Positions 1 to 40,164 of a stretch of 64,000 nt of DNA are shown one piece after another. Positions within the stretch are counted from its first letter, which is position 1; each line of letters starts with the position of its first letter. Made by a program: the position numbers and the translations under genes. The stretch covers positions 6,316,318 to 6,380,317 of the forward strand of contig JABAKD010000006.1 in the NCBI GenBank assembly GCA_012845835.1. The letters are read 5' to 3'. Source of the DNA: Undaria pinnatifida (taxonomy: Eukaryota; Sar; Phaeophyceae; Laminariales; Alariaceae). Below the pieces are notes generated by a model. The model worked only from the letters and a program-made list of their open reading frames with translations. It searched no databases and was not told the origin of the DNA.

Positions 1-2048
1 GGGCTGCTAGGCCGCTCGCACGTCGATGAGGCGGCGCCTACCGATAGCATACGATCCAACACGTCACGACGGATGAAGGTTTGGGGGGAGCCAGTGTCAA
101 GCAGCGCTGTACATATGTAGGGCGCAATAGCGCCCCCTCCGCTATGTATTGCAATATCGGTAGTGAAAGAATCGTCGTCCAGCGTCACGGTACCCCCAAC
201 GAGGCAGGGGCCATGTTCTGGCAGTGCGCGGTCTGAGGCGCCGCGAGAAGCTACCGCCAAAACCTCCGGGCTTTGATCGGCGGGTGTACCCGAAAAATAG
301 GCCGAAGGAGGGCCTTGGGCAGCGCCGACCGCGGTCCCCAAACGCGACTGCTGAGCGGACGAAATTTCATGGATTCCAGCATTCCCGGTGGGCCTGCGGA
401 ATCGACGAGGGGAGGCCGGGTGTGGCGATCCGTCCTCGCAGTCGCGAATTGCTTCGCGAACGGCAGAGAGTGCCTCACCGAGAAAATTTTTTCCTCTCCA
501 CTTGTGTGGATCCTTGGCGTGGGGGTCGTCCGCCCGGAGACCTATACCCCACACAGTGTCTAGAGGACTGGCCTCTGCCAGAAATTTGTTGCCAGTGCTC
601 AAAAGGTGATTTTTCATGGCTGGGTTCTGCGTAAATTTGGCATAGTTGCCAGATAACACGGCATTTTGCTTCTCCCTGTCCCAAACGGCGGCGTCAAAAT
701 TGCGCACGCCTCGACCGACGCGTTTGTGTGTGCTGGGGTCAGACGATGACATGATGAGCTCCACTGCGCGATGGTCTTTAAAAAGCCGAGCCTTTTCAGC
801 CATCATAAACTGCTCCGCGCAAGAATATGAGACGTCGTCGACGACAAACGACGAAGGAGACCACTGCGAGAAAAAGGACGGCGGCTGCCAGAACAACACT
901 ACTTTGTCTGTAGAGTATTCGAGGGAAGGGTCAAAAGTCGACGGTGCCAACCCGTCGGAGGCCGTGTTAGGCATATGAGCTTGTAATGTCCCCGTCTGGG
1001 GACACCAGTCTCTGGCACTTTGGGCCTGCAGCGTCCCCGTCTGAGGACGCCCGGCCTCGGGAGCACGGCGCGAGCCCGAACCCACGGGTGGTCGCGTCGT
1101 GGCCTTGTCGCTCTTTGGCGTAAAATCGCAAGGAACTGCTCTCACTGCACCCGAAGGGACAGGGGGCTCGGAGCTGTTACTGCTTGACGAGAGGCGCGAT
1201 TCTTCCGTATCTTCACGGGAATAGCGTCCAGCTGATCGGGCTGGAGGCCGTGGCGTCACCACGGGCCCGTTGCGCAGTGTCGGATCTATATCCTGTGCCA
1301 CTGGGGCAGACGTAGCCTGATGCACGTGGGTTAGCGTGCTTAACGACGGAGCAGGGCCCGTAGACCCTGTGGGCGTCTTCGAGAGCGGGGCTCGGGCAAG
1401 TGGAAATAAATTCTTCGCCCGAGAGGGCTCCTTCCCGTTAGCCCTCTTGGAGGAGAGAGACGAGGTAGCTAAGCTTGTCGGCTCCTCCTTGATGGGAAAA
1501 AGGATAGAACGCCCGCTACTATCGCGAGGAGACACCGACTCAAATCTTGGAAAAGATCTCGGTGCATATGGGTTGGCTTTCCCACACCTCAAGCCAACCG
1601 CCGCTTTACGGTCAGAAAGAGGCGGAGACGAACCCGTTCGCGTATGGAGGCGACGCGTCGTCGCCGCAGTTGTCTTGCTGCGCGACGCGTGCCTGAGGGG
1701 AGCGTGCAAGGTGCAGGCTCCTGAGTCATGGTTAAGGGGGGCAGCGTTAGGGGCGCGTGCCTCCGTTGTCGAGCTTGAGCCACGGCAGGGGTTAACGGCG
1801 TTGGAAGCACTGGTCCCCATTGCCGAACTCGGACCATGATCGAGGGGGGCGTCACTGTGGGCGCGCACCCCCTTCGTAGAAAATGTAGCCTGGCTGGGGG
1901 GGGGGCATACTGGGAGCCCTGGTCCCCACCGCCGGCACTGCGCCGTGAAAGTCATCAGGCGACGTAGGAGCCCTTGGGCTCTTGACAGAAGTAATTTGTG
2001 CCGCGCCACGTGTAAGGCGAACGACAGGCACACGAGCATCTTGTGAAA
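1..2048 (-). CDS. pol: Pol-like polyprotein, N-terminal part: disordered region, NADAR domain, aspartic protease (partial)
   Basis: This frame is open from just after a TGA at 2,049-2,051 to the window edge, giving at least 682 codons without a stop. It has no obvious own start and is probably made as a Gag fusion. Roughly residues 1-380 are rich in Ser, Pro, Thr and Arg and look disordered; a PQTGTLQA octapeptide occurs twice near residues 335-355. Residues about 386-535 form a full NADAR-type domain (separate entry). Residues about 625-660 form a retropepsin-like protease core, with the strand VTLDDD followed by the catalytic motif ALLDTGSPQTFI; the Asp codon is at 96-98. Retropepsins cut the retroelement polyprotein and work as dimers. 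The open frame with preserved catalytic motifs argues that this part is not badly decayed. The rest of pol lies outside the window. Confidence 0.85.
444..893 (-). other. NADAR (YbiA/COG3236-type) domain inside the retrotransposon polyprotein
   Basis: The translation shows the family's conserved blocks in the right order and spacing over 150 residues. They are an N-terminal FWQPPSFFSQW, then YSCAEQFMMAEKARLF (780-827), GRGVRNFD, GNYAKFTQNP (621-650), LLSTG, EASPLDTVWGIGL (537-575) and WRGKNFLGEAL followed by VREAIR. These blocks are the diagnostic signature of NADAR proteins such as E. coli YbiA. Family members are reported to act on N-glycosidic bonds (riboflavin pathway intermediates), and bacterial NADARs paired with DarT1 toxins remove ADP-ribose from guanine in nucleic acid. 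Nothing here shows which substrate this copy uses. All conserved blocks are intact, so activity is plausible. A role in removing host ADP-ribosylation from the element's RNA or cDNA is my inference. Confidence 0.93.
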
Positions 2049-2115
2049 TCAAAGGAAGTGTCCCCGACAGTGCCGTCGGCGTACGGGTCGGGTGTGCCGT
2101 ACCGCCGTCGCCCTG
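1852..2115 (-). other. In-frame extension of gag after its UGA (possible readthrough segment)
   Basis: After the gag stop (TGA at 2,116-2,118) the same frame stays open for 87 codons to a second TGA at 1,852-1,854. The sequence after the first stop reads UGA CAG GGC. The extension looks like coding sequence (for example PTSPDDFHGAVPAVGT) and ends at a proline stretch encoded by a run of ten C (plus-strand G10 at 1,896-1,905). The pol frame is open on both sides of this run, and removing one C would join the two frames. Either programmed recoding (readthrough plus +1 shift) or two disabling mutations could explain this. Confidence 0.5.
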
Positions 2116-5067
2116 TCAGTTGCCAGTGCGAAAGGTACCTGGTTGGCGCGCGTTGGGGTTTCCGCTCGGATTGTGGGTTGCCCTGAAACGTTTCCCCGGA
2201 GCAGACACGGAAGTCGAGGAGGCTGATGAGGGCGGGACAGAACCTTGTTGGCCAGGCGTGTATGTGCTGTTGTTGTTACCGCTGTGGCTGTTTGTCTGTC
2301 CCTGGTCCCGTGGGTACCCTCGTGATTGGTTTGAACGATTTCGGCGATTTTTGTTGTACGTTTGCGAGCGACAAGAGCGTCCGTCGCGGCGGTAGCTAAC
2401 CATACGTGCTTGCCACCGTCGGAAAACGTCATCATCGCCAAGTTGGCCAAGTTCAGGGTTTAGACAGCCGCTGGCGTTGATAAAGGGATGCCTACAGTTG
2501 CGTAAGGAATGAGTGTCTTCGTGACAGTTGAGGCAATGACCCCTGTTTTCTCGGAGAGCCGCGGCGCGGGCAGAGGGCGTGAGGAGGCCGCTCCAGAGGG
2601 GAGGGTCGTCGGTCTTAAACGAGGCACTAACAGCGAAAACTTCTGCATAGTGTTGTTCTTCTAGGGGCCAGCAGTTGGACATTTTGTCGAGCCAGGGGTC
2701 GGTGGAAGCAACAATCGGCATGACAATCGGATTATGGCTCGAACCCGTCTGCCAAGAAGGCGACTGAGACAGCACTCGGCCCTGGCCGCGCCCATGAACG
2801 GCGGGCCGGGGCCCCGACGGGGCGGATGACCGCGATCCCGTCGAAGAAACAGGTAGAGTAAAATGTTTTTCGCCGTTGACGGCAGGTGTCTTATTATGCG
2901 CCAAGTCACTGAACGCTTTCCACATGGCATCTAACGAGGCGTATGGCCGTGGGTCCGTAGCCTTCGAGCCAGGGTATAACGTAGGCATGAGCGTCGGAAA
3001 CTGCTCGTTGACCGCCATCCTAACCACCTCCAGCACGACATCCGTCCCCGGGGACAAAACACGCTCACTCCCCGTGACTGCCGATACTAGCACACGGAAC
3101 TCCCGACTGAAATCAGAAAAAGGCGTGCCGTTACACACTCCAAAAGTATGCAACTTAGTGTAGCCTTCGCCCGTGTCGACCCGGTCAAAGTGTGTCACGA
3201 GCAGGCGTAGCAGGAGGGTGAGAGCCTCGGGCCCAGATGCTCCTCCGTCCAACGCTCTTGACACCTGTCCAAACAAATCGTCGATCAAGGTGGTCATGCG
3301 AGCGGTCGTGGGCCTGTCAGGTGTTATGGCACGGTTGAATGCCAGGCGGAGGGGGTGGATCCAACCGGGAACCCACGTGGGGGCACGTACACCCTCTTGG
3401 CAACGGTCGTCACAGCGCATGAGTATGTCAGTCATGGCAGACCGAACCGAACGTGTGAGTTGCTGGGTGCCGTCAGACTTGTTCAAAGAGGCGGGGAACG
3501 GTAGCACAGAAATGCGTGATACGTCCTTGTGGGAGAGCTTAACATAGGCGCGCCTAACCGAGTCATCGAGCGTGGATTTAGCTAGAGCCGCGGCGGTAGC
3601 AAGTTCGGCGGTACGCTCGCGAGCCAAATCCGAAGAAACAGGCTTGGTGTGGTCACCCGACACAGTAAGTTTGCTCAGCCGGTCGGCGGACGAGGCAATA
3701 TCCACCAGAGAAGGAGTTACTTGCCTCCTGCCAGCTACCACGGTCACCTCGCCGTGGTCCGTGTTGGAGCTCGAAGACGAGCGGGAGGACGTTGACGACC
3801 CGTCCCACGCTGAGGGCCCTCGTGTGCTGTTTCGCCGTCCTCCGGTGCCTCCTCCCGAGCTGCGACCGCCGCCCCGGTTGGTTCGGGCCTGGTTGCTTCC
3901 TTGGCGGCGCTGTGGGCCACCACCAGTACCCGACGCTCCTCCCGCGCTTCCACCACCGTTGCCACCACCGCGACGGTTGTGGTGGCCACCACTCCCACCG
4001 TTTTCCCCGTTTCCCCCACTCTGGCCGCCACCACCCCCGGAGTTGCCACCTCCACGGTTGCGGTCCCCCCGATCACGGCTGCCACCGCGCCGCTGTTTGG
4101 TGGAGCGCCTTCCTTCCAGCGCTTCCTTTGGAGTCGGCCACAGGACTGGGTCAGGGGCGTCGTCGTGGGCCAATCTTAAGGCTTTGACCAAAGCGAGGGT
4201 AGGTGCTCGCCTCATCTGCCCGAAGGCGGACGAGTTGTCCCGGCGAGCCCAGACTGCTCCGACCGAAAGGTCTTCCGCCTTGAACGACGACCGTCGCTCT
4301 GAAGTTAGAAGGGCCTTGGCCGCTGCTATCACCGCCTCCGCCAGATGCGCCGAGAACTCGACCCTCGGCGTGGTAGCCATGTATTGGACGCTGCCAGACA
4401 TGAAAACGTCGTCCCCGGGTCGTGTATCTTGGGAGGCAACACTCAGCGGGCGCGCCGAGGAAGGAGCAGCTCTCGCCGGAGTCGATGTAGCTGAGAGGGC
4501 AACGGCTTGGCGTGCCCTTTCGACCGCACGGGATGCCTCACGAGCAGCGGCTCTCGCCTGGTCGATGGCGTGATCCTCACGGCGTCGACGTTCGTCGTCT
4601 AACCGTTTGCGTTCCTCTCGTCGAAGCAGGGTCGCGTTGGCTTCGTCGAGAGCTCTTTGGGCCCGAGAAATTTCAGACTCTGAGTCTGAGGGGCCAGCAT
4701 GGGAGCGCTGGTCTCCGTAGCTCTGGGGAAGGCGCTCTGTCGAGCGCGGAGAGGTCTGATGTCGACGGTGGTGCTCTGAGGACAGCTGGAGATGCTCCCT
4801 CGAGGCTGGGGATATTTGTCGTCGTGATGTCTCCGCACCCGGTAGGAGTTTTTCCGCCTCGTCGACCGGCGAGTCGGGGTGGTCGGACCGTGTGCCGTGT
4901 TGTTGACTGGTGTTGGAGTCACTATCGTCGTCCAGGTTTTCGGCGCGTCCACCTCGTCTCGATTCGCGGGACCTCGAGCGTTCCCGTCCTTCTCCCTGGG
5001 CCTCCTGGATGAGGCGCGCGGAGGACCGCAGCCTGCCCGAGTAGCCCCCATCGTCGCTGGTGGACAT
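2116..5067 (-). CDS. gag: Gag-like capsid/nucleocapsid protein of an LTR retrotransposon
   Basis: The ORF encodes 983 residues from an ATG at 5,065-5,067. The N-terminus (1-130) is charged and Ser/Arg-rich. Residues about 133-189 are Ala/Arg/Glu-rich with heptad-like spacing and may form a coiled coil. Residues about 325-415 are a Gly/Arg/Asn-rich tract with many GGG and RGG steps, typical of RNA-binding disordered regions. Residues about 500-730 are mostly helical in character and contain the stretch GTPFSDFSREFRVLVS, resembling the capsid region of retrotransposon Gag. A classical zinc knuckle, CLNCHEDTHSLRNC (C-X2-C-X4-H-X4-C), lies at residues 845-858 (2,494-2,535) and would bind the element's RNA. 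A polar Asn/Gln/Ser tail follows. It is long for a Gag mainly because of the N-terminal disordered half. Long open frames on the opposite strand are shadows of the GC-rich codons. Confidence 0.88.
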   Translation of the reverse strand: MSTSDDGGYSGRLRSSARLIQEAQGEGRERSRSRESRRGGRAENLDDDSDSNTSQQHGTRSDHPDSPVDEAEKLLPGAETSRRQISPASREHLQLSSEHHRRHQTSPRSTERLPQSYGDQRSHAGPSDSESEISRAQRALDEANATLLRREERKRLDDERRRREDHAIDQARAAAREASRAVERARQAVALSATSTPARAAPSSARPLSVASQDTRPGDDVFMSGSVQYMATTPRVEFSAHLAEAVIAAAKALLTSERRSSFKAEDLSVGAVWARRDNSSAFGQMRRAPTLALVKALRLAHDDAPDPVLWPTPKEALEGRRSTKQRRGGSRDRGDRNRGGGNSGGGGGQSGGNGENGGSGGHHNRRGGGNGGGSAGGASGTGGGPQRRQGSNQARTNRGGGRSSGGGTGGRRNSTRGPSAWDGSSTSSRSSSSSNTDHGEVTVVAGRRQVTPSLVDIASSADRLSKLTVSGDHTKPVSSDLARERTAELATAAALAKSTLDDSVRRAYVKLSHKDVSRISVLPFPASLNKSDGTQQLTRSVRSAMTDILMRCDDRCQEGVRAPTWVPGWIHPLRLAFNRAITPDRPTTARMTTLIDDLFGQVSRALDGGASGPEALTLLLRLLVTHFDRVDTGEGYTKLHTFGVCNGTPFSDFSREFRVLVSAVTGSERVLSPGTDVVLEVVRMAVNEQFPTLMPTLYPGSKATDPRPYASLDAMWKAFSDLAHNKTPAVNGEKHFTLPVSSTGSRSSAPSGPRPAVHGRGQGRVLSQSPSWQTGSSHNPIVMPIVASTDPWLDKMSNCWPLEEQHYAEVFAVSASFKTDDPPLWSGLLTPSARAAALRENRGHCLNCHEDTHSLRNCRHPFINASGCLNPELGQLGDDDVFRRWQARMVSYRRDGRSCRSQTYNKNRRNRSNQSRGYPRDQGQTNSHSGNNNSTYTPGQQGSVPPSSASSTSVSAPGKRFRATHNPSGNPNARQPGTFRTGN

Positions 5068-5239
5068 GGTGCCTAGGAGCAGTGAAGGGGGGGGGGATAC
5101 GAACGGCGCGTGAAGAAGCTATGGAGACAGATAAATTGTTGTGGTGTTCCTGCTCCAAGGGGCGGTATATCTGTGTTTCAGCAAACAGCAACAATATGGG
5201 CCTTAAAGCCGTCCAGCCTTAGTGATGGTAGCAGCCACG
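5068..5239 (-). other. Presumed 5' leader of the retrotransposon
   Basis: This is the stretch between the tandem-repeat zone and the gag start. A run of nine G on the plus strand (C on the transcript strand) sits about 20 bases before the gag ATG. A TTGGAGCAGGAACACC segment (minus strand, near 5,140-5,160) is vaguely like a primer-binding site, but it does not follow a CA-ended LTR and I do not call it. Confidence 0.35.
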
Positions 5240-5463
5240 TCAACTAGCCGTATAAGAGGAGTACAGCAGTAACAAGGTACCAATCATCATAACCGCAACA
5301 TAAGAGCAGCGCCCAGTCTGACCGTAGGGTATATGGGTAACGCCCGCACGACCCGCAGCACAAGGAGCCAAAACTGGGCAGCACTGACCCCAACCGCAGT
5401 GCAGGGGGTGCAACACAGTAAGGGTACGTCTGCAGCCATCGCACTTAAACAGGCATCATTCGA
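5240..5463. repeat. Decayed copies of the 84-bp repeat (gag-proximal edge)
   Basis: Degenerate segments keep parts of the unit, such as GGGCAGCA followed by a pyrimidine-rich stretch and a GCACAGT- or ACACAGT-like word, but spacing and sequence drift. No gene is seen. Confidence 0.5.
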
Positions 5464-7411
5464 CCTAGGCTGGGGGAGGTAGCACAGGAGAGCGTCGCCC
5501 AAAACGCCCACGCTCATCGGACCAAAACAGGCAGCATTTACCCTAGGTGTAGTGTAGGGGTGGAAGCACAGTGTAAGATCGCCCAACACGCCGTCGCTCA
5601 TCGCACCAAAACAGGCAGCATTTACCCTAGGTGTAGTGTAGGGGTGGAGCACAGTGTAAGATCGCCCAACACGCTGACACTCAGCGCACCAAAACGGGCA
5701 GCATTTACCCTAGGTGTAGTGTAGGGGTGGAAGCACAGTGTAAGATCGCCCAACACGCTGACACTCATCGCACCAAAACGGGCAGCATTTACCCTAGGTG
5801 TAGTGTAGGGGGGGAGCACAGTGAAAGATCACCCAACACGCTGACACTGATCGCACCAAAACGGGCAGCTTTTAACCTAGGTGTAGTGTAGGGGTGGAAG
5901 CAGAGTGTAAGATCGCCCAACACGCTGACACTGATCGCACCAAAACGGGCATCATTTACCCTAGGTGTAGTGTAGGGGTGGAAGCACAGTGAAAGATCGC
6001 CCAACACGCTGACACTCGTCGCACCAAAACGGGCAGCATTTACCCTAGGTGTAGTGTAGGGGTGGAAGCAGAGTGTAAGATCGCCCAACACGCTGACACT
6101 CATCGCACCAAAACGGGCAGCATTTACCCTAGGTGTAGTGTAGGGGGGGGAACACAGTGTAAGATCGCCCAACACGCTGACACTCATCGCACCAAAACGG
6201 GCAGCATTTAACCTAGGTGTAGTGTAGTGGTGAAATCACAGTGTAATATCGCCCAACACGCTGACACTCATCGCACCAAAACGGGCAGCATTTACCCTAG
6301 GTGTAGTGTAGGGGGGGGAGTACAGTGAAAGATCGCCCAACACGCTGACACTCGTCGCACCAAAACGGGCAGCATTTACCCTAGGTGTAGTGTAGGGGTG
6401 GAAGCACAGTGTAAGATCGCCCAACACGCTGACACTCATCGCACCAAAACGGGCAGCATTTACCCTAGGTGTAGTGTAGGGGGGGGAGCACAGTGTAAGA
6501 TCGCCCAACACGCTGACACTCATCGCACCAAAACGGGCAGCATTTAACCTAGGTGTAGTGTAGGGGTGGAAGCACAGTGTAAGATCGCCCAACACGCTGA
6601 CACTCATCGCACCAAAACGGGCAGCATTTACCCTAGGTGTAGTGTAGGGGGGGGAGCACAGTGGAAGATCGCCCAACACGCTGACACTCGTCGCACCAAA
6701 ACGGGCAGCATTTACCCTAGGTGTAGTGTAGGGGTGGAAGCACAGTGTAAGATCGCCCAACACGCTGACACTCATCGCACCTAAACGGGCAGCATTTACC
6801 CTAGATGTAGTGTAGGGGGGGGAACACAGTGTAAGATCGCCCAACACGCTGACACTCATCGCACCAAAACGGGCAGCATTTAACCTAGGTGTAGTGTAGC
6901 GGTGGAAGCACAGTGTAAGTTCGCCCAACACGCTGACACTCGTCGCACCAAAACGGGCAGCATTTACCCTAGGTGTAGTGTAGGGGTGGAAGCACAGTGT
7001 AAGATCGCCCAACACGCTGACACTCATCGCACCAAAACGGGCAGCATTTACCCTAGGTGTAGTGTAGGGGGGGGAGCACAGTGTAAGATCGCCCAACACG
7101 CTGACACTCATCGCACCAAAACGGGCAGCATTTAACCTAGGTGTAGTGTAGGGGTGGAAGCACAGTGTAAGATCGCCCAACACGCTGACACTTATCGCAC
7201 CAAAACCGGCAGCATTTACCCTAGGTGTAGTGTAGGGGGGGGAGCACAGTGAAAGATCGCCCAACACGCTTACACTCGGTGCACCAAAACGGGCAGCATT
7301 TACCCTAGGTGTAGTGTAGGGGTGGAAGCACAGTGTAAGATCGCCCAACACGCTGACACTCATCGCACCAAAACGGGCAGCATTTACCCTAGGTGTAGTG
7401 TAGGGGGGGGG
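5464..7411. repeat. Tandem array of an 84-bp unit, about 23 copies
   Basis: The word CCTAGGTGTAGTGTAGGGG recurs every 83-84 bases from 5,464 to 7,388. Each unit then has an AGCACAGTGTAAGATCGCC block, a CAACACGCTGACACTCATCG block and an ACGGGCAGCATTTA block. Two unit types tend to alternate, one with GGGGTGGAAGC and one with a pure G run (GGGGGGGGAGC), giving a higher-order period near 168. Eighty-four is a multiple of three, so reading frames stay open through the array. The largest covers 6,236-7,915 on the minus strand (559 residues, a 28-residue peptide repeat) and is probably a by-product of the period rather than a gene. Confidence 0.95.
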
Positions 7412-8060
7412 ACACAGTGAAAGATCGCGCAGCCAACCGTATAAAAATGGGCAGCATCTGCCCCCACAGTAGTGTAGTGGGGGGTAGGACAGTATGCGTT
7501 CGCGCACCAACCGTATATTAAAAAAAACGGGCAGTATAACCCCCCCAACGAAGTAGTTTCCCCCGACCGCACTAAAGGGGGACGGTCGCGCCTGCAGTAG
7601 TGCTGATTGCTGCAGTATCACTGCTGTGTTCACAGGTAACGGTAATTTCAACCGCACCAAGATGGGTAGTGTAGTACCAACACCAGCTGTAGAAAAATGT
7701 GCACGCCCACAGTCAAATAGAAAGGCTGTTTGCCCCCAAAAGTACCGCATTAAACGGGCTGTTCTCCACTGCACTAGTAAAAACTGTGAAGCGCAGTATC
7801 TCCGCGAACTGTGTAGTAAGCGCTCTGTAACGGGCAGTAGCTGTCCGAACATGTGCAGAGAAGAAGAAAAAAAAATTTCCAGCGTAGACCCTAGCAATAT
7901 CGTGAAGGGCAGCACATGTACGGGCAGGAAGACGGCCTAACGCCCGTACAGCTGATAAAAAAAATCCGTACCCGCTCCCACCGATAAAGGGACAGTTACG
8001 TTGACAGCAGTGCGGAGTGCCGCACGGTCACAGCTGTGCATACACAGAAAGTGGTATTAT
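7412..8060. repeat. Decayed repeat-like zone beyond the 84-bp array
   Basis: Pieces of the array unit recur in altered form (ATGGGCAGCATCTGCCCCC, AACGGGCAGTATAACCCCCC, ATGGGTAGTG), fading towards 8,060. It probably represents old copies at the distal edge of the array. No convincing gene is present. Confidence 0.4.
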
Positions 8061-9087
8061 AGTCCCCGCGTACCCATGAATGGGAGAATATAGGGCATCG
8101 CACATACCAACAGCCTTGCCCAAACAGCCAGCACAGAGTTTCAGCGTTCACTAGGTTCAAGTTCTAGTCACGGAGGGGCCAGGACGAAAAAAAAACTCTC
8201 GAATCGAACTTGCAAGGAGCACTCGCACAGCAGTGGGGGGTGTCAGAGCTGCGGTGCTGTAACTGTGGACGCTGGGGCAGTGAAGGGTCGAGCTATGTGG
8301 TGTATGAGCAGGAGCAAAGTAGGCGGCTTGGCTGCTGTACAGTGACTTCTACAGCAGAGAATCCGGCGGTATATGGCAGGCATTGACAGCGAGCCCATTG
8401 TGCTGCACTGTAGTTGGCACCTCTGCAAAAATGATGGTGGTTGAAGCTACGCGACGGACAGCAGTAGTGGAACGCTGTTGATCGAGAAAGATCGGAGAGG
8501 GGTCCGAGGTGCCAAATTCGTAGCTGGTACTAATTTCGGCAGAAAGGGGGCACAAGGGCTGCTGCTTGTTCGACGCACAAGAATGATCGACGTACGTACT
8601 GAAACCCATACGATAACGCGTGTACTGGAAAATTTGCCAAACGAAAAAGCATAAACATTCCACGAGCACCGCCTGTTTCTTCCCAGGTAGATCACAAAGG
8701 AGGAGCCCCGACATGAGCTCCTAGAGCACGGTGCCCGTAGTCCAAGGGGTCCCGCGAAGGACGGTCTGGCACCGACAGCAAGGATGTGCTGGGCGAGGGG
8801 CTCTCTCAGCGAGCGAAGTCCCCTTCGAATGTCATTCGAAGGGTTGATTCCAGTATGCTTGTCCGTGGCATGTCGTGCATATGCCTCCGAGCCCCAAAGC
8901 GCGAAAAAAAAAGTACGAGTCGATGGCCGATCTTGGGGCTTGTGCTGGCAACTCGCGGATATGTGCTGTGCAACATGCTGGCAGAGCGCGGAGCAAACAA
9001 GTCTGATGGGTGGGGCTCGGGCAGTTCCTCTGCGGAGTGGTCTATGACCAGCTGGCGGTGAACTGATGCGGCCAAAGGCCGGGACGA
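8061..9087. other. No recognisable gene
   Basis: Overlapping open frames exist on both strands (the longest, 237 codons, at 8,447-9,160 on the minus strand), but none shows a domain, a consistent codon preference or a family signature. The only structure noted is the hairpin at 8,821-8,843. Confidence 0.5.
8821..8843. other. Near-perfect 23-base inverted repeat
   Basis: CCCTTCGAATG and CATTCGAAGGG are exact complements separated by a single base. Its role is unknown. Confidence 0.6.
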
Positions 9088-9281
9088 AGGGTGTGCTCCG
9101 AAGAGCAGTGTCGTCCGCCCGTACTCGGAAAGTGTCCTCTGTGTGGTGCGTGCCCAGCAACCAACAGGAGGGACCAAAATTCGAGACGAGGAATGTGCTC
9201 CGCAGAGCAGTGTCGTCCGCACGTACTTGGAAGTTGTCGTCCGTGTGGTACGTGCGCGGCGACCAACAGGAGGGGCCCCTG
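9088..9281 (+). repeat. 105-bp direct duplication with conserved cysteine codons
   Basis: The block starting GTGTGCTCCGAAGAGCAGTG recurs 105 bases later with about 85-90 percent identity by eye. On the plus strand both copies read C-X4-C-X7-C-X2-C-X2-C (for example CSEEQC, then KCPLCGAC). Every cysteine is kept while several neighbouring codons differ. The open frame 9,091-9,441 lacks a clear start context, so I annotate a repeat rather than a gene. Confidence 0.5.
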
Positions 9282-9602
9282 CCATCTCACTGCTGTTGTG
9301 GTCGCCGTTTTAGGAGGAAGGGCGCTCCCTCCATTGAGAAGCCACCCGAGAAGGAACAGGGGTTGTGGGCTCGATGGAAAGCAAAAGCAAAATCGCTACG
9401 AAAAAAAAATCGGAGAAACCGGAAGAACGCTGCCACAATAGCACATCAAGCTCGACGACGCCACTTGTGAAATTAATAGGTGGGGACACAGAGTGCCCCC
9501 TGCAGGTCTGCCAATTGAGCAGGTCTTCGGAGAGTACTCACTTTCGTTCCTTCGTAGAGATGTAGCTTTATTCGTTTCCACCAGAGCCCGGGATAGCTTC
9601 TG

Positions 9603-9628
9603 AGATCGGAGGCGCGTGCCTCCGATCT
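9603..9628. other. Perfect hairpin, 11-bp stem and 4-base loop
   Basis: AGATCGGAGGC and GCCTCCGATCT flank the loop GCGT. It lies about 100 bases outside the outer end of the left arm of the large inverted repeat. No poly-T tract follows, so I do not call a terminator. Confidence 0.6.
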
Positions 9629-11995
9629 AATTCCTAATTTCCCCGAATATAAACCGCCAACCTTATCATACGAAACCCATCCAAATGATCTCAAATTCGG
9701 ATACCTACAGGCCTTTCGAGGCCGTATCTTAACACATACAGACAGGAGACGTGTCGGACATAATTTTTGTTGCTGTTGACGCACGGTTGCGGTGTAAATG
9801 GTCTCGCGAATGCGTTCAGACGAGGTCAAGCGAGTACTATTGCTCGTCTGTAGAAGCGGTGTTCGTAGCACGTTTCATTCCTAATGAGCATGATATGGTG
9901 GTGTTGAACGATTTGGTCACGAGGCATCTTTGATCCTCTAGTGCCCATGCTATACAGCCACAGATCCAGCTGAAACCAGTTTCAGTTATCTTTTCGTGTC
10001 CATTCATGTTTCGATTCGGTCGCTTCGGGTGCATGTCCGTTCCTCGCGCATGTGGCCAATGACATCAGTCCAAAATAGTGGCTGTAGTCCAATGTAAAGT
10101 ACGCAGGACGGTTTGTGAATGTAGCAACTAGCCTTGTAGAGGTAGTGCACGGCTTGGTTTCATAGTACTTCGAGGCTACACGCTGACGGAACATGGCATG
10201 TGATCGGGTCGAATTTGGTATTTGCGAGGCCTTCGATGCCATGCTTTACGTGTATTTGTTTAACAGGGTGTTATGTTGGCATAGACGAAGTGCCGCTGGT
10301 CAAGCAAATGCTGGCTAGTTTAACCACAAATGAGTTGGAGGTAAGTTTATCAAAACACAAGAGGCGGCAGCGTGAGTTGTGGTGTGTTTTCTGACACGTG
10401 TGTCGTAGCGGTATGGTATGGAGTGTACGATGGCCTCAGCATGATACGAACGGAGGTGTGAGGCATCGCGATTGCTACGAGATTGTTCCACGTAGATCAC
10501 TTCAGTATTCCCGATTTCGTCTGATGATGGCGTTTCCAACAATGAGTTAATCAATTTCACCTCGCGTATACATTGAATCGATCGTGCTTTCTCTCGATGT
10601 GTCCTGCAGATTGAATTAACATAACGCCCTGTGATATTGTAGCTCGTAGAAGTACGCGAAGTTGCTCGCGGAAACAAAAAAACACGCAATTCATATCACA
10701 TGATCATGTCATCGTGCGTAACCATGTGTCATATAGACGCGATGTATTACATTCCAAGGCGTTATTAAACAAAATACATTTTCACGCCAGTCAACATGTA
10801 TATGCTATATGTAGCTTGGGCAGCCGGATCGAGTCGTACATCGTACACATTGCACGGCGGTGTACAGTTGTAGTACAAGAAAATATGGAACCTATGTCCA
10901 ACGATGACAGCATAGTCTGTATAGATACAAATATGCATGATGTTTGACAGGCCATTAGATAGTCTAGTGTAGAGCTAAACTGCATGGTTTTGATTCCACC
11001 TCTTGTTGTTGTTCTCACATTAACTCGCATGATCACGTCTATGGTCACAGGACAGGCTCCAATCAAGCTCTGGAGATGAGGAATACCCTCAAGAAAAACC
11101 CAAGCAAACCAAAGGTGGTACACGCATAAAAAAAGTGTTTGCAATGGCTCCGCATGATGCCGGCACCCATATGCTTCGCGTAGGGCAGGCAGCACTTCAA
11201 CTTGTCCGATTCAATACCTGGTAGATAAAAACGTCACCGCACACATTATAGTCTGCGCGTACAGTATGTAAGGTAATGCCAAGAGTTCGATATAGACTAA
11301 CGATGATACCAATGTACTACAAATAATAGCTACCGTTTGTTTTGTATGTAAATCCGATTCCGATCTTCATTTATCAGATATCGATCGGATAAATCCGAGC
11401 ACACGCCGATTAACCCTTTAATCTAGCGACAAAATGTGTCGAATGCGTTTCTTGTGATAGTTTTACTCGATCAAGCATTCGGGTTCAGTAAGGTGACTAA
11501 CCATGTCCGATGCGTGCGATTAGAGAAGTTGTTCATGGGCCTTTTGGCATTAAACAACAGCAGTCAGTCCAGATCGAGTCGATCGGTGCAACTTGCTCGG
11601 CTATCGTATTATTACAGCAGCAGTGATACACTTCACTTCTTTTCTTTTTCCCATCCCATTTGTTGTGATGCTCGCATTACTCTCGCCCTCCCAACGCAGT
11701 ACTATATCTTAGATCCGGGGTCATATAGCGGGCTCCCCTCCCCCCTCCCCCCTCCCCACCACCGCCCCTGTCCTAATGTTTATCGCGAGAGAAATTCAGT
11801 ATTCTCTTCCCTCGTCGGTTCCCGTCGATTTGTACCTACCCACCGCTGCTAGGCGATTTCAGCAGTTAGTTTATCCTTTTACTCCCATTTATTTCTGCAA
11901 ATAAATATAGCCAACAAAGATCGCAACGGTGGATATTTAACTCAAGGACCAACGCTAGTATTAATAGTAGTAGAATTCGAGTGCAACCCCATTTG

Positions 11996-13654: not shown

Positions 13655-15190
13655 GCTTGTCTTGCTCAGCGTCTATCCACGTTCACGTCGAGGTGTGGAA
13701 CGAATACGTCAGGGCGAGGGACGTTGGAGCCGCCCCCCGAAGACGGCGCTCGAACAAAGCTATTTGACCAAGAATTACAGTTCAACGAATCGCATACTGA
13801 GGCGGAGATTTGTTCGTCTTGCAGCCTTTCTAATCTTCTTGCATCACATTCTTCACAGCTGTTTGCATTTCCCGTGTTTCATTCGTTCAAGCCCTGCAGA
13901 CGTCAAGCAAATCAACCGCAACTTGGATAGTTACTTTCATAATAGATCGCGCAAAAAACCTTGGACTATTGGGTCAAAGCCTCCTAACTAAGCTCCCAAT
14001 TATTTACGCGGTCGCAATGCGGCGGGTCATTTGCATCATGTACGATATTTAAGGAATATTTTGTTTGTTCGTGAAGGGTGTCCGTCTAATTTTACTTTCT
14101 AAAACAGTTGTATCCCCGCCTTCGTTGCCGGCCGTAGAGAACTTTTCGCAGATGTCGAAGTTTGTACATTCGTCTACGAAAAGCACGTCATCCCTCACGC
14201 ATTGTTAGTCTGCTTCTTTTTGTAGGTAGTCCATCGTTGTTTTACGTTGTTGTTGGCGCGTACCCAAGTAAGATTGAAGAGACATTTTTTTTTCTTGTGC
14301 GTGATCACCCGACGAAGTTGTACACATTCTTTATTTGTACAACTCCTGCTGACGATTTTGAGCCTATATCAGGTGGACGTACAGACCAAGCACGCTCGAA
14401 ATGAAAAACACTTCAACAGCACCAAACGCAATGAAATACAAAGGCGAATTGAAGCGAGCTACTCCTACTGGTATTACAACATGCGCTCAAGCCCTGCAGA
14501 CATCGAGCAAACAAACGCTCGAGAGTATACCACCCCAAAATTAAAAAAAATTAGCGACTACCCACCGGTTGGAAATGATGCCAACTTCAGAAACTATCCA
14601 GACGCTGCAGACGTTATTATAAGATACAACCGAAGTAACAAAATTACCTCGGCAAACCACAATATATTTGCAACTTATCCCTCGTCTCGCTCAGCATCCA
14701 TCCGCGTTCACGTCGAGCTGCCCAACGGATAAGGAAGGGCGAGGGCCGTTGGAGCAGGCCCCCGAAGACGTTTACGCGTTGGAGCCGCTCCCCGAAGATT
14801 TTTACGTGTTTCATTCGTTCAAATGCTGCAGACGTCAAGCCAAACAATCAAACCCTCCAGCCCTGCAGACGCCAAGCAAAACAAACGCTCAAAAGTATGC
14901 CACCGTAAAGTTCCAAATATTAGCAACTACAGTTTTGAAATGATGCCAATTTTGTTTGTCATCCATGCGCTAAAGACTATAAGATACAACCAAAATCTCC
15001 GGAATTCCTCCTCGACAAGTGCTTTTTTAGCAATTTCTCGCTAGTCTTGCTCGGGATCCGGCCGCGATCACGTCGATGTGCGGAATGGACACGGCAGGGC
15101 GAGGGGTGTTGGAGCCTCCCCCCGATACCGGCGCTCGAACGAAGCTATTTGACAGAAAAGTCCAGCTCCGCGAATCGTATACTTAGGCCG
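13655..15190. repeat. Degenerate tandem subrepeats inside the left arm
   Basis: Two motifs recur. One is a block with TCCACGTTCACGTCGAGGTG, AGGGCGAGGGACGTTGGAGC and CGGCGCTCGAACAAAGCTA, seen near 13,660, 14,690 (partial) and 15,050. The other is a short block CCCTGCAGACGTCAAGCAAA seen near 13,890, 14,490, 14,825 and 14,860. The region looks like a decayed array; no gene is supported. Confidence 0.6.
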
Positions 15191-31399: not shown

Positions 31400-34300
31400 T
31401 TTGGTGCCGAGCGTTTCAGGGGGGCTATAGTAACGTTAATGTAGATATGGCAAATCAGGGGGAGGGTATCGTCTAGCGTTTCAACGAGTGGTTTGAGTAG
31501 TCAAGCGTTCGACGGGGCGGGGAGGGGTTGTAATATTTTAGGAGGATGCGTGCTGTATCGCGCTTCATGGAGGCCCTACAGCTGGAAGAGTTGCAATGTC
31601 ACCCTTGATACGAACGATACTATATCACCCTTGATATGGACCTTTGTCTCCCTTGATGGAGCACGAATATCATAAGTAGTGTGGTACCTGCATCGTGAAT
31701 TGTCGCTCAAAATATTTCCCATGATAGTTTCAGGGGGGCTATATCACCGTTGATATACATGTAGTATATTAGATGGCCGTCGTCAAGCGTTGTAGTGGAT
31801 GATTTGAATTGACAAGCGATTCACAGGGGGGGGGGGTTGATAGTATTTCTGGCGGGTGGGGGCCTATGTCAACCTTGATACAGTGTGTCGGGGGGGGGCT
31901 GTATCAGCTATCAGCTATCAGCTATCAGCTACCAGCCTTGCTATGCTGTATTGGGGGCTGGGGGGTGGGCGAGGGTGCTGTAATACAACTCATACAGTGC
32001 ATTGGAGCGTTTGGCTTTATCACCCTTCATACAGTATCAAGGAAGGGGGCTATTTCACACCTTGTGCAGAGTATCGGAGGGGGGGGGGGGGGGCTCTAGC
32101 ACCGTTGATAATATACAGGGGGCTAAATTTCACCATTGATATAGGTAACCATCCGGCTGATTGAGGGAGAGATTGGGGGGGCTATTGTTTGGCAGGGGAC
32201 GATGTCTTCCCGGGGGGACTGATATTTTTCCGAGGGGGGGCGGATATTCCTGGTGGATGGTATTTTGAAGGCGGGGGCGATACACTTCAGGGGGGGATGA
32301 TATGCTTCAGGGGGGGGGCAAATGAAGCAAAGGAGGGTGATATATTACGGGCGGGGGTGATGTATTTCATGGGGGGGTGATGTTTCAAAATGGGGTATCA
32401 CCCGTGTATCGGGGGGAGGGGGCTGTGTTGCGGTTGATACGGTGTATCGGGGGGGAGGGGGCTGTATCACCCCCCCTGATACAGTGTTTCGGGGGTGGGG
32501 GAAGGGGAGGTCTGTATCAACCCTTATACAGCGTATTGGTGGCGAGGGATCACCGTTGATCATTGACGAGGGTGGTATACTTCCCCCTTGGATGTAGGTA
32601 ATATTATGGCTGTTTGAGTGGGAGGGGGGAAGGCTAAATTTTTCAGGGGACGATATTATCCACGGGAGGTTGATATTGTTTAAGGGGGGTGACCGGTTAC
32701 TCCAGAGGGGCTAATATTTTGAAGGTCCGAGTGATATAATTCAAGGGGGGGGAGGCATGCTTCAGGGGGGGATAATATATTTCAGGATTAGGTTAATAGA
32801 CTATATATCAGCAGGATATATTTCGGGGGGGGGGGGGGGGGGGGGGGATATTTTCAAGTGGGGTATCACCCGTGATAAAATCGTGATGCAGTGTATCGAG
32901 GGGAGGCGGCTGTATCACCCTTGATACAGAGTGTATGGGGGGGGGCTTTATCACCCCTGATACGGGGCGTTGATATTATACTACCACCCGCCGATAAAAA
33001 CCAACCCCCCCTGAAATCTCCGTTTATATCACTCTTGATAGTGGAGGCTATAACACCCTTGATACAGTATATCGGGGGGCGGGGCGTATATAGCCGTTGA
33101 TACTATACTACCACCCGCCGATAAATACCACCCCTCTCTGAAATCTCCGTTTATATCACCCTTGATAGTGGAGACTATATCACCTCCGATACAGTACATC
33201 GGGGGGCGGGGGTATATAGCCGTTGATAATATACTACCACCCGCCGATAAATACCATGCCCCCCATGCAATATTATATCCCCCCCCTGAAATGTCCGGCT
33301 ATATCGCCGTTGAAACAGTGTATTGGGGGAGGGCTATATCACCCGCGATACAGTATATCGGGCGGCGGGGGGTATGTCACCGACTGAAATACATGATCCC
33401 TCCCCCTCATATATAGTTACCCCTCCTGAAATATCAGCCTATATTACGGTTGATACAGTGTGTCGGGGGGGGCCTGATACAGTTTCTTTTTTCATATTTT
33501 GTTTCCCACATTTTTACTTTCCGGCTTTCGGACAAGCCGTTGTCACAGGTGTCGTCCCTTCTCCCTCCCGGTTCGTGCCTTCAATTTTTATCGCGCATAG
33601 GGTTCAGCAATCCCACTGCTCGTCGATTTTTCATCGAGTGTTGCTAACTCACGCTCTCGCGCTTTTTGCAAGTAAATTTATGCACAAGAAAAAGTCCCAA
33701 CTAATTTATACCAGCATGCACTCGGCGGGGCTCGAACGCACGAAACTAGCCTATACCAGGCTCGAAAAAAACCTGATACGTCGCCGGGAGGGACATCACC
33801 GCCTGAAATATGTGACCCCCCCCCTCAAATATATCACCCCAATCCCTGAAATATAGTAACCCCCCCTGAAATATGTCATCCCCCCCCGAAATACCGGCTG
33901 TATCACCGTTGGTACAGTGTATCGGAGGGGGGACTGTATCACCCCTGATACAATGTATCGGCGGGCGGGGGGTAGATCACCGACGGAGAATATATTAGCC
34001 CCCCCTACTACAGGGTATCAGGGGGGGCTAATACACAGTGTATCACGGGGGAATTACATCACCCATGATTCAGTAGATAGGGGGGCAGGAGGTATATCAT
34101 CATCTGTAACATATGACCCCCGTGTGAAATACATCACCCCCCCCTGATACATTGGGGGCTATACCACCCCTGATACAGTGGGGGCTATATCACCCCTGAT
34201 ACAGTATATCACCGACTGAAATATATTATTCCCCCCTGAAATATACCACCCCCCCCCTGATACACAGGGGGCTATATCACCCCTGATACAGTATATCACC

Positions 34301-34960
34301 GGCTGAAATATGTGATCCCCCCCTGAAATATATCACCCCCCCCTGACACAGTGGGGTCTGTATCACCCCTGATACGGTATATCGGAATACAAGGGGGCTA
34401 TATTACCGTCTGAGATATATCACCCCCCCCCCGAAATATATCACCCCTCCTGAAATATTCCAACCTCCCCCTGAAATATCCTGCTATGTCACCCTTGATA
34501 CAGAATATCGGGCGGCGGGGGATATATCTCCGACTGAAATATGCCACCCCACCGTGAAATATCGGGCTTTATCATCCTTGATACAGTACATCGGGGGGCA
34601 GGGGGTATATCACCGTCTGAAACATACTATCCCCCCGTGAAATATCGGGCGCTTACCACCGTTGATACAGTGTATCGGGAGTGGTGGAGGGGGCTGAATC
34701 CCCCCTGATAGACTTTTTGTTTGGACTTATCGCCCCCCCCCCCCGGTTCATGGGATCCCCTCCGCACTATCCGAGCCACACTTCAACGTATCACCCCGCT
34801 CGTTGATAGAATACAAAGGGGCTATATTTCACCCTTGTTTGTAGGTAATCATCCGGCTGTTTGAGGGGGAGGGGGGGTGATATATTTCAGGGGGGGGATG
34901 ACATATTTCAGGGGGGGGATATATATCAGAGGGGGATGATATATTGAAGCGCGGTTCGGA
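31400..34960. repeat. Degenerate G-rich/C-rich array built from GATACAGTGTATC and TATCACC modules
   Basis: Short modules such as CTGTATCACCCTTGATACAG, GTGTATCGGGGGG and GAAATATATCACCCCCCC recur dozens of times with irregular spacing. Runs of five or more G dominate the plus strand to about 33,480; runs of C become common after about 33,800. A single-base run of 23 G lies at 32,825-32,847. GATACAGTGTATC is itself nearly palindromic. A SINE-like repeat interrupts the array at 33,518-33,793. No gene is present. Confidence 0.85.
33518..33793 (+). mobile_element. SINE-like repeat inserted in the G-rich array (spacer copy)
   Basis: It has the same core as the copies in the two arms (TCATCGAGTGTTGCTAACTC, ACGCTCTCGCGCTTT, GCCTATACCAGGC). 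On the minus strand the end reads GCGTTCGAGCCCCGCCGAGTGC, a good B-box-like sequence. Its position as a clean interruption of a low-complexity array supports insertion of a mobile element. Confidence 0.55.
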
Positions 34961-35029
34961 TATTGCCGAAGCGATCCCATAAATCGGGGGCCCCGATAAA
35001 TCGCAACGCCCACAATTGCTAAACGATTA

Positions 35030-35560
35030 ATTATACCGTGATTCCGTTCCTAACTGCCCGCGCTCCCGGGAAAATCCCCACTAATCGATCACTACCTTAC
35101 GCGTGCTTTCGGGTGGTTTTTCCGTTTCTAACGACCCTCTCCTGTCGGGGATTCACCCCGGTTGCCAAACTATCATGGATGTGGCGATTTTCGTTTCTAA
35201 CGACCCGCTCACATCGGGGTTATGCCAGCACTGACCGACCACTATGTGCCTGTGCTTTCGGATAGTCCTGTTTCTAACAGCCCGTTCACATCGGGAACCC
35301 ACCACGGTTGCTAAACGAATATTGAGTGTGATGAGTTCCGTTTCTGACGGTCCTTGCGGTCGGGATTATGCCATCACCATCGCTAATCGACCAACACCTA
35401 CAAGTTCCTTCGGGTGGTTCCGTTTCAGACGGCCCGTGCGATTGAGAACCCACCACGGAGGCCAAACGAGTAGTATGTATTGATTCCGCTCCAAACGGCC
35501 CGTGCGATCGGGATTATGCCATCACCAGTTGACCACTACGCCCTCTTCCCCTCCGCTTGC
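35030..35560. repeat. Degenerate dimeric tandem array, period about 150 bp
   Basis: Two related half-units alternate. One contains TTCCGTTTCTAACGGCCCG followed by a CCCACCACGGTTGCTAAACGA-like stretch. The other contains the same head followed by GGGATTATGCCATCACC and an ATCGACCACTACCT-like stretch with TTCGGGTGG. About seven to eight half-units are visible. Confidence 0.75.
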
Positions 35561-35604
35561 CCACCCGCCGTGGAAATTTGCGGAGGGTGGGTGGGAAAAC
35601 AAAA

Positions 35605-35752
35605 CTGTAGACGACCCCTGACGTCCCTTTCCCGGTGCCACGGTCCTAGTTAGGTCGTACAGACCCTCCCTCGTTAGCTACCTCTTCTTGGTTACTCTGC
35701 TGCACCGACGATTCCACGCTTCACACAGCTCTACAGGTTTTTGCTGACATCT
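35605..35752 (+). repeat. 145-bp direct repeat, copy 1
   Basis: GACGACCCCTGACGTCCCTT through AGCTCTACAGGTTTTTGC matches 42,062-42,205 with about 90 percent identity. Copy 2 abuts the inner end of the right arm. Confidence 0.85.
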
Positions 35753-35959
35753 GACACATCGTTGTCCTCTCGGCCTCTTATTCATGTGGAACGTTCATTT
35801 TCTCACTTGTTACCCCGTACCAAACATCCCGCTACCCTACACAGAAAAAAACCGCGAAATATCGTTCGTCTATCTTTGTACCCGTTACCCCCAAACACCA
35901 AGTTGCCCAACGGCAACCTCCCTCCTTGGGTTTTCACTTCCACAAAACATGCTCTATAT

Positions 35960-36359
35960 TAATTGACGAAGCCTAAATGATGGGGGGGGGAGGAAAGGGT
36001 TGCACTGCTCCCGCCCTCCCCCCTGATGCGTACGTTCCCTTACCTCTATAAAGAATAGCAGGAGGGAGGAGGGGAAGGAGGGTCGCTCCTTCGCTTTCCC
36101 CTCTTGCTTACCCCTCCCCCACCCACACAAACGAAACGCGGTCGACCTACCTACGGCGGTCGACCTACCTACCGGTCGCGCTCCGCTCGTGAGACGCCTA
36201 CCCACACAAGACCGTGATTTCCCCACCTCTTCGTCCGGATATCTGTTCTGGCCGCTTTAGTTCCTACAGCAACAGTTCCCGAAGCGGTCCTTACATTACC
36301 GTACTTATTCCATTCCACGCCATCTTGTCTACATCTTCCCGGCTGTCCCTGCCACAAAA
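35960..36359. other. No gene; GC-skewed transition zone
   Basis: Purine-rich and pyrimidine-rich runs alternate. A short direct repeat, CGGTCGACCTACCTAC, occurs twice at 36,140-36,175. No coding evidence. Confidence 0.4.
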
Positions 36360-39270: not shown

Positions 39271-39288
39271 TATTATCGAAATACATTT

Positions 39289-39385
39289 ACACTCCAGCTG
39301 TGAGATTGAAGATCTTTGTCGAAACTCATTTTTGTAAGCTTTGTATGATACTCCGATCGCGCGTATTACTGGGCATGTCGTTTCA
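39289..39385 (+). repeat. Dispersed repeat family, head fragment
   Basis: CACTCCAGCTGTGAGATTGA, TTTGTCGAAACTCATTTTTG and TATGATACTCCGATCGCGCG are in family order, then homology stops near GGGCATGTCG. Confidence 0.7.
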
Positions 39386-39719
39386 TAAATCTATCAAAGA
39401 CGTAACGGGGTACGACAAACTCAAACAAGGGTTCAGCCAACTCTTCGTATCTCTGATGTACGTAGGGAGACCACTATCTTCTACATACAAGGAGGCGGGG
39501 GAGGGGTAAAGGGGGAAATGGGGGGCGTCCTGCCCAAGAGGCTTAAGTCTGGGTCTGGCCATCATTTTCTTGAAATCTGCAGGCCTTCCAATGGCCGTCA
39601 CAAGATAGCATTAGACCGCCCTGACTTCTTCGCCATGTTGCGTTGTCTCCCCAGTGCCATTGATGATGCACTTGATACCCTCTACGAGCCCAATGCCGTC
39701 TTGAGCCGGTTCCTAGGGT

Positions 39720-39960
39720 CTGCTAGTATGCCATTTTCCCTCTTTTCCTTTCCTTGCTTCCTCTTCTTGTCCGGTCTTTTATCGCGTCCTCTTCTTGTCT
39801 CGTCCTTTATCGCTTCCTCTTCTTGTCTTGTCTTTCATCGCTTTTTTTGTCTTTTCTGTTCTGTTCTTTCCTTTCGTTTTTCGTTTTTTCGCTTTCTTGT
39901 CTTTTCTTTCCTTTCCTTTATCATCTTTCCTTTTCTTTGTGTATTTTTCCAATTCACTTG
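39720..39960. repeat. Pyrimidine (TTTTCC/CTTCTTGTC) tract
   Basis: About 240 bases are almost entirely T and C on the plus strand, with an imperfect TCTTCTTGTC repeat. The open frames here are hydrophobic by composition (Phe/Leu/Ser) and are not taken as genes. Confidence 0.65.
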
Positions 39961-40164
39961 CGTCTGTCGTGCGTATGCGTAGTGATAGGTACTACGTGCA
40001 ATATATACGTGGTAGTCTTTCTTGGGTGGCAAGCGGTATAGTCGGTTTTTCAAGGCGCGAGTGGTGAGACTTATGCACCAGTATGGACCTGGCACATCGT
40101 AGACTGACTCCCGATTTCACTTTTATTTGTTTCTGGTGGAGGCATGAATTGCGTTCGCTGTGAT

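Follow-up and report, generated by a model that had tools for sequence, protein, structure and literature searches.

Why should a NADAR domain lie between the Gag and the protease of a retrotransposon? An earlier note on a 64,000-nucleotide stretch of Undaria pinnatifida DNA (the window; contig JABAKD010000006.1, positions 6,316,318 to 6,380,317) had claimed a complete YbiA-type NADAR domain at this place, directly downstream of a zinc-knuckle Gag. We asked what the domain and its element are, how widely the arrangement is repeated, where the domain may have come from and what it might do.

A full-length NADAR domain in a Ty3/Gypsy retrotransposon

The 150 residues translated from window positions 893..444 on the minus strand contain no stop and gave a significant match to the Pfam NADAR profile PF08719, covering positions 2-163 of 163 (E = 3.9e-50; 170.7 bits against a cut-off of 35.1). 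The same residues matched NCBIfam TIGR02464 with E = 2.7e-43. The domain has the YbiA fold of the NADAR superfamily, and it is almost certainly a NADAR of the YbiA type at full length. The coordinates proposed in the earlier note were exact and the family blocks it quoted are present. Its placing of the domain between Gag and protease also held, with the protease motif ALLDTGS in the frame of NADAR and the Gag frame upstream, the latter carrying a single zinc knuckle. A Pfam search of the 983-aa Gag frame gave no match.

Table 1. Parts of the NADAR-bearing element, given in window positions.
Feature	Position	Strand	Basis
NADAR domain (YbiA type), N-terminal part of Pol	444..893	-	PF08719
Open frame, 679 aa, continuing past the window edge; holds NADAR and the start of the protease	3..2039	-	ORF list
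Aspartic protease motif ALLDTGS, in the frame of NADAR	87..107	-	read from translation
Pro/Ser-rich spacer from Gag stop to NADAR; frame disturbed in the window copy	894..2115	-	
Gag UGA stop, candidate readthrough stop; out of frame with Pol in the window copy	2116..2118	-	
Gag, 983 aa, one CX2CX4HX4C zinc knuckle (CLNCHEDTHSLRNC)	2116..5067	-	read from translation
Long leader (4.4 kb) between Gag and 5' LTR	5068..9465	-	
84-bp tandem repeat, 23 units, inside the leader	5495..7428	-	
5' LTR, 269 bp, TG...CA ends	9466..9734	-	
Target-site duplication TATG; second copy outside the window beside the 3' LTR	9735..9738	-	

The element is a recently mobile Ty3/Gypsy LTR retrotransposon of the brown-algal NADAR-Pol kind. 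By its LTR coordinates it spans about 16.2 kb, and its domain order is Gag, a UGA stop, then NADAR-PR-RT-RNaseH-integrase. The partner (3') LTR lies outside the window at G000:C55:6309885-6310153; the pair gave a 270-bp match with two mismatches (99.26% identity) and, because the LTRs are so alike and a target-site duplication is present, we regard the insertion as recent. Past the window edge on the same strand come RT, RNaseH, an H2C2 integrase zinc finger and the integrase core (rve), which gives the PR-RT-RNaseH-IN order of Ty3/Gypsy elements (Metaviridae), the protease being recognized by its motif only. The TG..CA ends and the duplication are likewise those of a Ty3/Gypsy element. Among solved RTs the nearest was that of Ty3 (4ol8, 232.1 bits; 7q5b, 231.4 bits), with the next at 143.6 bits. 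At the C-terminus of Pol we observed a weak match to the chromodomain PF00385 (E = 0.051; 13.9 bits, below the cut-off of 25.1). In two other copies, too, repeats matching the 84-bp array of the leader precede Gag.

Many copies in two diverged subfamilies

The earlier note had left room for a capture confined to this one copy. We searched all 511 Mb of the genome (68 contigs) with the NADAR family and all 150 scored candidates exceeded the cut-off, a count that is a lower bound since only 150 of 1,454 first-look candidates were scored; the retroelement context was repeated as well. The open frame around the domain was 2,473 aa long in nine of the 150 and 2,371 aa long in five. The domain is thus no chance capture, and it belongs to a multi-copy family with a fixed architecture.

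We examined 67 copies, comprising 60 fetched with flanks, six loci from the genome search and the window copy; C18:11938674 was left out of this count, both of its loci being on the duplicates list. The sample was not random, as it combined the best-scoring matches with more diverged ones. It divided into 42 copies of subfamily A, to which the window copy belongs, and 25 of subfamily B. Identity between A and B was 78% in RT, 49% in the protease region, 43% in NADAR and 16-28% in the spacer.

The catalytic and ADP-ribose-binding positions were kept in nearly all 67 copies. Residue roles were taken from the accessible part of PMC11543638 and mapped onto the element through an alignment with the Phytophthora nicotianae structure 8BAU. 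Residues equivalent to 8BAU E43/K50/R79/W89/E125/D130/W133 were retained in 40/41/42/41/40/42/41 of the 42 A copies and in 24/23/25/25/25/24/24 of the 25 B copies. The position equivalent to R93 was Lys in 41/42 A copies and Arg in 25/25 B copies. The subfamily of a NADAR is told by the catalytic residue of its last strand, according to the accessible text of PMC11125620 and PMC11543638. This residue was Glu, not Asp or His, in 40/42 A and 25/25 B copies, as in the YbiA subfamily, and we rejected the BC4488/DarT1-linked subfamily, which requires Asp at that position.

A UGA codon between Gag and NADAR

Many copies carry NADAR-Pol in the frame of Gag behind a single UGA. Among the 60 copies fetched with flanks (35 A, 25 B), the UGA was in frame in 19 of A and 16 of B. 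The remaining A copies had the UGA out of frame (4), a TAA (1), a TGG (1), an AAA (1) or a junction that was not recognized (9), and the remaining B copies had it out of frame (6) or not recognized (3). No extra stop preceded NADAR in 16/19 and 13/16 of the in-frame copies of A and B, respectively. The junction, which reads FRTGN*QGDGG in A and FRTN*RAGGG in B, is therefore common to both subfamilies.

In the window copy 1,225 nt separate the UGA from NADAR; as this is not a multiple of three, the two are shifted by one base and the Pol frame of this copy is broken at its start. Copies without this defect exist. NADAR is thus the first domain of Pol, and we infer that it would be made only when the UGA is read through. 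RNA folding just after the UGA was not unusual, as the observed energy was reached in 10% of 300 shuffles for A and 40% for B. Readthrough therefore draws no structural support from this stretch, and a structural signal there was rejected.

Selection on the NADAR domain

To compare constraint across the element we removed copies with stops or incomplete stretches, which kept 37/42 A and 21/25 B copies for NADAR, and calculated pN/pS in two ways. Pooled values were taken against one reference copy, using only copies with at least 4 synonymous differences. For A they were 0.27 in NADAR (9 copies), 0.27 in RT (9), 0.36 in the protease region (6) and 0.57 in the spacer (8), with the NADAR value biased downward because the copies were found through NADAR. 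For B, to which the same bias applies, they were 0.52 in NADAR (4 copies), 0.34 in RT (7), 0.33 in the protease region (9) and 0.88 in the spacer (4). Pairs of nearest neighbors, in which neutral decay after insertion weighs more heavily, gave 0.44, 0.47, 0.63 and 0.80 for NADAR, RT, protease region and spacer in A, and 0.78, 0.39, 0.37 and 1.03 in B. NADAR in subfamily A is constrained about as strongly as RT. The signal in subfamily B is weaker, and NADAR there is not clearly constrained in the manner of RT.

Probable kinship of the element domain with a cellular brown-algal gene

A search with the NADAR domain returned 1,037 proteins, and those named among the best 120 included cellular proteins of the brown algae Ectocarpus, Pylaiella and Scytosiphon and of the myxobacterium Nannocystis. 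The cellular algal NADARs (P0056, P0057, P0071, P0083 and P0062) share an FD-x-(S/T) lead-in with the element domain. They differ from it in being stand-alone proteins of 209-252 aa that lack a protease or RT, and four of the five have a Cys/His N-terminus. The Undaria genome itself carries such a cellular gene, the exons of which (L237) start from C20:5683403 and lie about 1.9 kb apart with an intron between them; one encodes the Cys/His N-terminus along with the first part of NADAR, the other the catalytic Glu/Lys region. Two weaker matches to the N-terminus of the cellular gene were seen on C61.

We built four trees. The third, which included 22 prokaryotic loci (21 bacterial, one archaeal), placed the algal cellular proteins together with the A-type element domains in one starred clade (95/97), adjoining myxobacterial and planctomycete proteins (92/90). 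When the exons from the same genome were added in the fourth tree (42% of columns filled; without the 8 viral rows of the third tree, P0130, P0132, P0134 and L227), the A plus algal clade was recovered at 99/96. The second tree, from which two viral rows with stops were dropped, also grouped A with the algal genes (90/78, not starred), while the first joined the algal genes to bacteria instead (83/43, not starred). By tree, then, the nearest kin of the NADAR of subfamily A is probably the cellular brown-algal gene.

It looks as if a host gene and a retroelement exchanged the domain, in a lineage for which bacterial transfer had been proposed. A clade of A-type elements alone, with the host genes outside it, was not rejected (AU p = 0.278), so the exchange may have run from host to element or from element to host. 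Direct acquisition from bacteria with no host intermediary is disfavored only: the starred clade of A and algal proteins is set against a plain identity of 55% between the A domain and Nannocystis P0086, compared with 49-52% to four algal cellular proteins. The bacterial source proposed in print from blastp matches may be an indirect one, because the algal cellular gene is nearest by tree.

Subfamily B fell outside the A clade in all four trees. A joint A plus B clade was nevertheless not rejected (AU p = 0.056 and 0.187; 0.245 and 0.149 with host genes), and NADAR is only slightly less alike between A and B (43% identity) than the adjoining protease region (49%). We do not claim that the NADAR of B was replaced by an unrelated one.

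Other element proteins with NADAR before the protease

A search with a 1,057-aa piece returned 14 proteins. P0127 has the order NADAR, protease motif, RT, RNaseH, and its RT-RNaseH is 66% identical to that of A. Six others (P0122-P0126 and P0128) carry NADAR with a related protease region, the motif being altered in P0125 and P0126.

P0129, one protein on one 6.8-kb contig, also reads NADAR-PR-RT-RNaseH-IN, with an RT-RNaseH only 34% identical to that of A. It scored 269 bits against A (BLASTP) and 271.5 bits against yeast Ty3 (phmmer), a rough comparison since the programs differ. At 34% identity, and about as far from A as from Ty3, P0129 seems to represent a different Gypsy clade with NADAR at the same place. 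A common origin of the NADARs of A and P0129 was rejected without host genes (AU p = 0.008) and not rejected with them (0.073), and the grouping of B with P0129 gave 0.030, the groups for these tests having been named after the trees were seen. The NADAR of P0129 is probably a separate capture. The P0129 domain as a query found three proteins, namely P0129 itself and two without RT.

Relation to known systems

Elements of this kind are already known, because the window element fits the description in PMC12477816 (2025), the accessible part of which reports Gypsy families of Ectocarpus (sp. 7; Gypsy-12_Ec32 and related) with NADAR at the N-terminus of Pol. The same report describes divergent NADAR domains in ORF1 of Tx1 LINEs of Crassostrea gigas, which are thus also on a retrotransposon, yet one that is not an LTR element. 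We found no further report of retroelement NADARs among the open-licence PMC papers that our searches listed. By description, the window element is like Gypsy-12_Ec32 in the position of NADAR and differs from the Ectocarpus families in its two diverged subfamilies, in its 4.4-kb leader with an 84-bp array and in belonging to another genome. The UGA before NADAR is documented here, and the accessible text of PMC12477816 does not mention one for the Ectocarpus families. That text suggests possible horizontal transfer, as its blastp matches were almost all bacterial, whereas the nearest kin by tree in our analysis is the cellular brown-algal gene. What is new is an abundant NADAR-Gypsy case in a second genome with a Gag-UGA-NADAR arrangement common to A and B, the measurements of selection, the occurrence of NADAR at the same place in P0129 with its very different RT, and a cellular algal gene as the probable nearest kin.

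The P. nicotianae NADAR (8BAU), a guanosine-ADPr hydrolase, is 30% identical to the element domain, and the accessible part of its description mentions no retroelement polyprotein. The DarT1-linked NADAR antitoxins (E. coli C7, Geobacter lovleyi) share the superfamily and the Glu/Lys core with the element domain. They stand in an operon with the DarT1 toxin, whereas the neighbors of the element NADAR are Gag and protease, and the E. coli C7 protein has Asp where the element domain has the YbiA Glu. According to the accessible text of PMC11125620 and PMC11833690, all NADARs assayed, including E. coli YbiA, were able in vitro to take ADP-ribose off guanosine in DNA or RNA and were inactive on thymidine- or phosphate-linked ADP-ribose. 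On guanosine-ADPr RNA a DarT1-linked NADAR outperformed both YbiA and the T4 NADAR (PMC11833690), and YbiA failed to rescue the toxicity of one partner toxin (PMC11125620).

What the domain may do

We hypothesize that occasional readthrough of the UGA would yield a Gag-NADAR-PR-RT-RH-IN polyprotein, so that NADAR would be made at a low Gag-Pol ratio, enter the particle and be freed there by the protease. The particle NADAR might then hydrolyze ADP-ribose off guanosine bases of the element RNA, primer or cDNA, and marks placed by a host or symbiont ADP-ribosyltransferase would thereby be kept from blocking reverse transcription or integration. The A-type domain would, as the trees suggest, share its origin with the cellular NADAR gene of brown algae, itself close to myxobacterial and planctomycete proteins. 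We know of no nucleic-acid ADP-ribosyltransferase of brown algae. We put the probability that NADAR is a particle-borne hydrolase clearing guanosine-linked ADP-ribose from the nucleic acid of the element at roughly 40-45%. Such a hydrolase may serve as a counter-defense against ADP-ribosylation by the host, and the proposed removal of ADP-ribose fits the biochemistry in PMC11125620 and PMC11833690.

The main rival is that NADAR acts on small ADP-ribose derivatives or routinely processes the RNA intermediate or primer with no attack from the host. The conservation of residues and the selection we measured fit this equally well, and we still think it rather unlikely. To our knowledge most Gypsy elements lack NADAR, so the domain cannot be a general step of transposition. 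Processing of the RNA intermediate was suggested in PMC12477816, the paper that first described such elements, and soluble ADPr derivatives and RNA repair were proposed for viral NADARs in PMC9503650, which argues that phage NADARs prefer soluble ADP-ribose derivatives. Against such routine processing, the NADARs assayed in PMC11833690 were inactive on 5'- or 3'-phosphate ADP-ribosylation of RNA. NADAR could also be retained as a binding module (for RNA, ADP-ribose-marked chromatin or partners of the host NADAR) with catalysis dispensable, in the manner of the chromatin readers of Pol. Such readers are carried at the C-terminus by the published Ectocarpus relatives (PMC12477816), and our element has its weak PF00385 match, below the cut-off, at the same end of Pol. 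A role in binding only is nonetheless quite unlikely, as the catalytic Glu and Lys are kept about as well as the binding positions in both A and B, whose NADARs are only 43% identical.

Retroelements do carry captured host sequence, and NADAR could have hitch-hiked without function on a successful element. It diverges faster than RT (43% against 78% identity between A and B), and its nearest-neighbor pN/pS in B is 0.78. Yet NADAR is of full length in A, in B and in related proteins, its pooled pN/pS in A is 0.27 against 0.57 in the adjoining spacer, and the distant Gypsy protein P0129 has it at the same position, which makes idle carriage very improbable. The likelihood of an assembly join or a chance similarity is close to nil: these, like a single-copy capture, were refuted by the 150 scored places, the LTRs with their target-site duplication, the other element proteins of the same order and the Ectocarpus families.

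Should a particle-borne hydrolase prove to be the answer, a wider scheme can be drawn, which taken whole we consider unlikely. At least two unrelated Gypsy lineages, the brown-algal one and that of P0129, would each have captured NADAR ahead of the protease, with a possible exchange inside the brown-algal lineage (subfamily B), and LINEs would have taken it up as well; NADAR would erase guanosine ADP-ribosylation laid down by an undiscovered eukaryotic defense, and the algal cellular NADAR would be the self-protection arm of that defense and either the source of the element domain or its domesticated offspring. If the domain does erase ADP-ribosylation of bases, the contest over this mark extends from bacteria, phages and RNA viruses to retroelements, and a eukaryotic defense by nucleic-acid ADP-ribosylation becomes something that can be searched for. 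The case is a tractable one: the domain is compact (150 residues) and present in many copies, the same genome holds a cellular relative, and an in vitro assay already exists.

NADAR domains in viral sequences

Some positive-strand RNA viruses embed NADAR in their polyproteins, and the survey of viral NADARs that reports this (PMC9503650) names none in retroelements in its accessible part. Neither P0129 nor the B domain picked up a relative when viral contigs were scanned with them. Viral contigs yielded 149 NADAR relatives among 329 pattern matches, with identity of at most 53% among the 80 listed. Phage records contained NADAR in 671 of 50,697 cases, all less than 60% identical.

Other NADAR proteins

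NADAR also lies at the N-terminus of P0129, a Gypsy Pol protein of 1,415 amino acids whose reverse transcriptase is distant from that of the brown-algal lineage. In four other proteins recovered by protein searches (P0130, P0131, P0132 and P0133), NADAR and an ADP-ribosylglycohydrolase occurred in one protein, and two of the four additionally harbored a microbial-type PARG domain; judging from domain content, a single chain of this type comprises several ADP-ribose erasers. The searched Undaria genome contains a cellular NADAR gene that is split by an intron and has a Cys/His N-terminus common to brown-algal proteins, and two further, weaker matches to this N-terminus were found on contig C61.

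Additional features of the element and window

The element's leader contains a tandem array in which an 84-bp unit occurs 23 times, and repeats matching this unit were also present upstream of Gag in two other element copies. The chromodomain match (PF00385) at the Pol C-terminus was weak, with an E-value of 0.051 that fell short of the cut-off. Elsewhere in the window, two open frames on opposite strands have in common a near-identical stretch, which is a dispersed repeat, and C-rich, strand-skewed low-complexity arrays reached a GC skew as low as -0.48.

Coordinates of the additional features
Feature	Location	Strand
Leader tandem repeat	window 5495-7428	
Open frame with dispersed repeat	window 14226-14732	+
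Open frame with dispersed repeat	window 49206-49847	-
Low-complexity arrays	window 34000-40000	
Weak chromodomain match	L009:114-1049	-
Cellular NADAR gene (L237)	G000:C20:5683403-5685800
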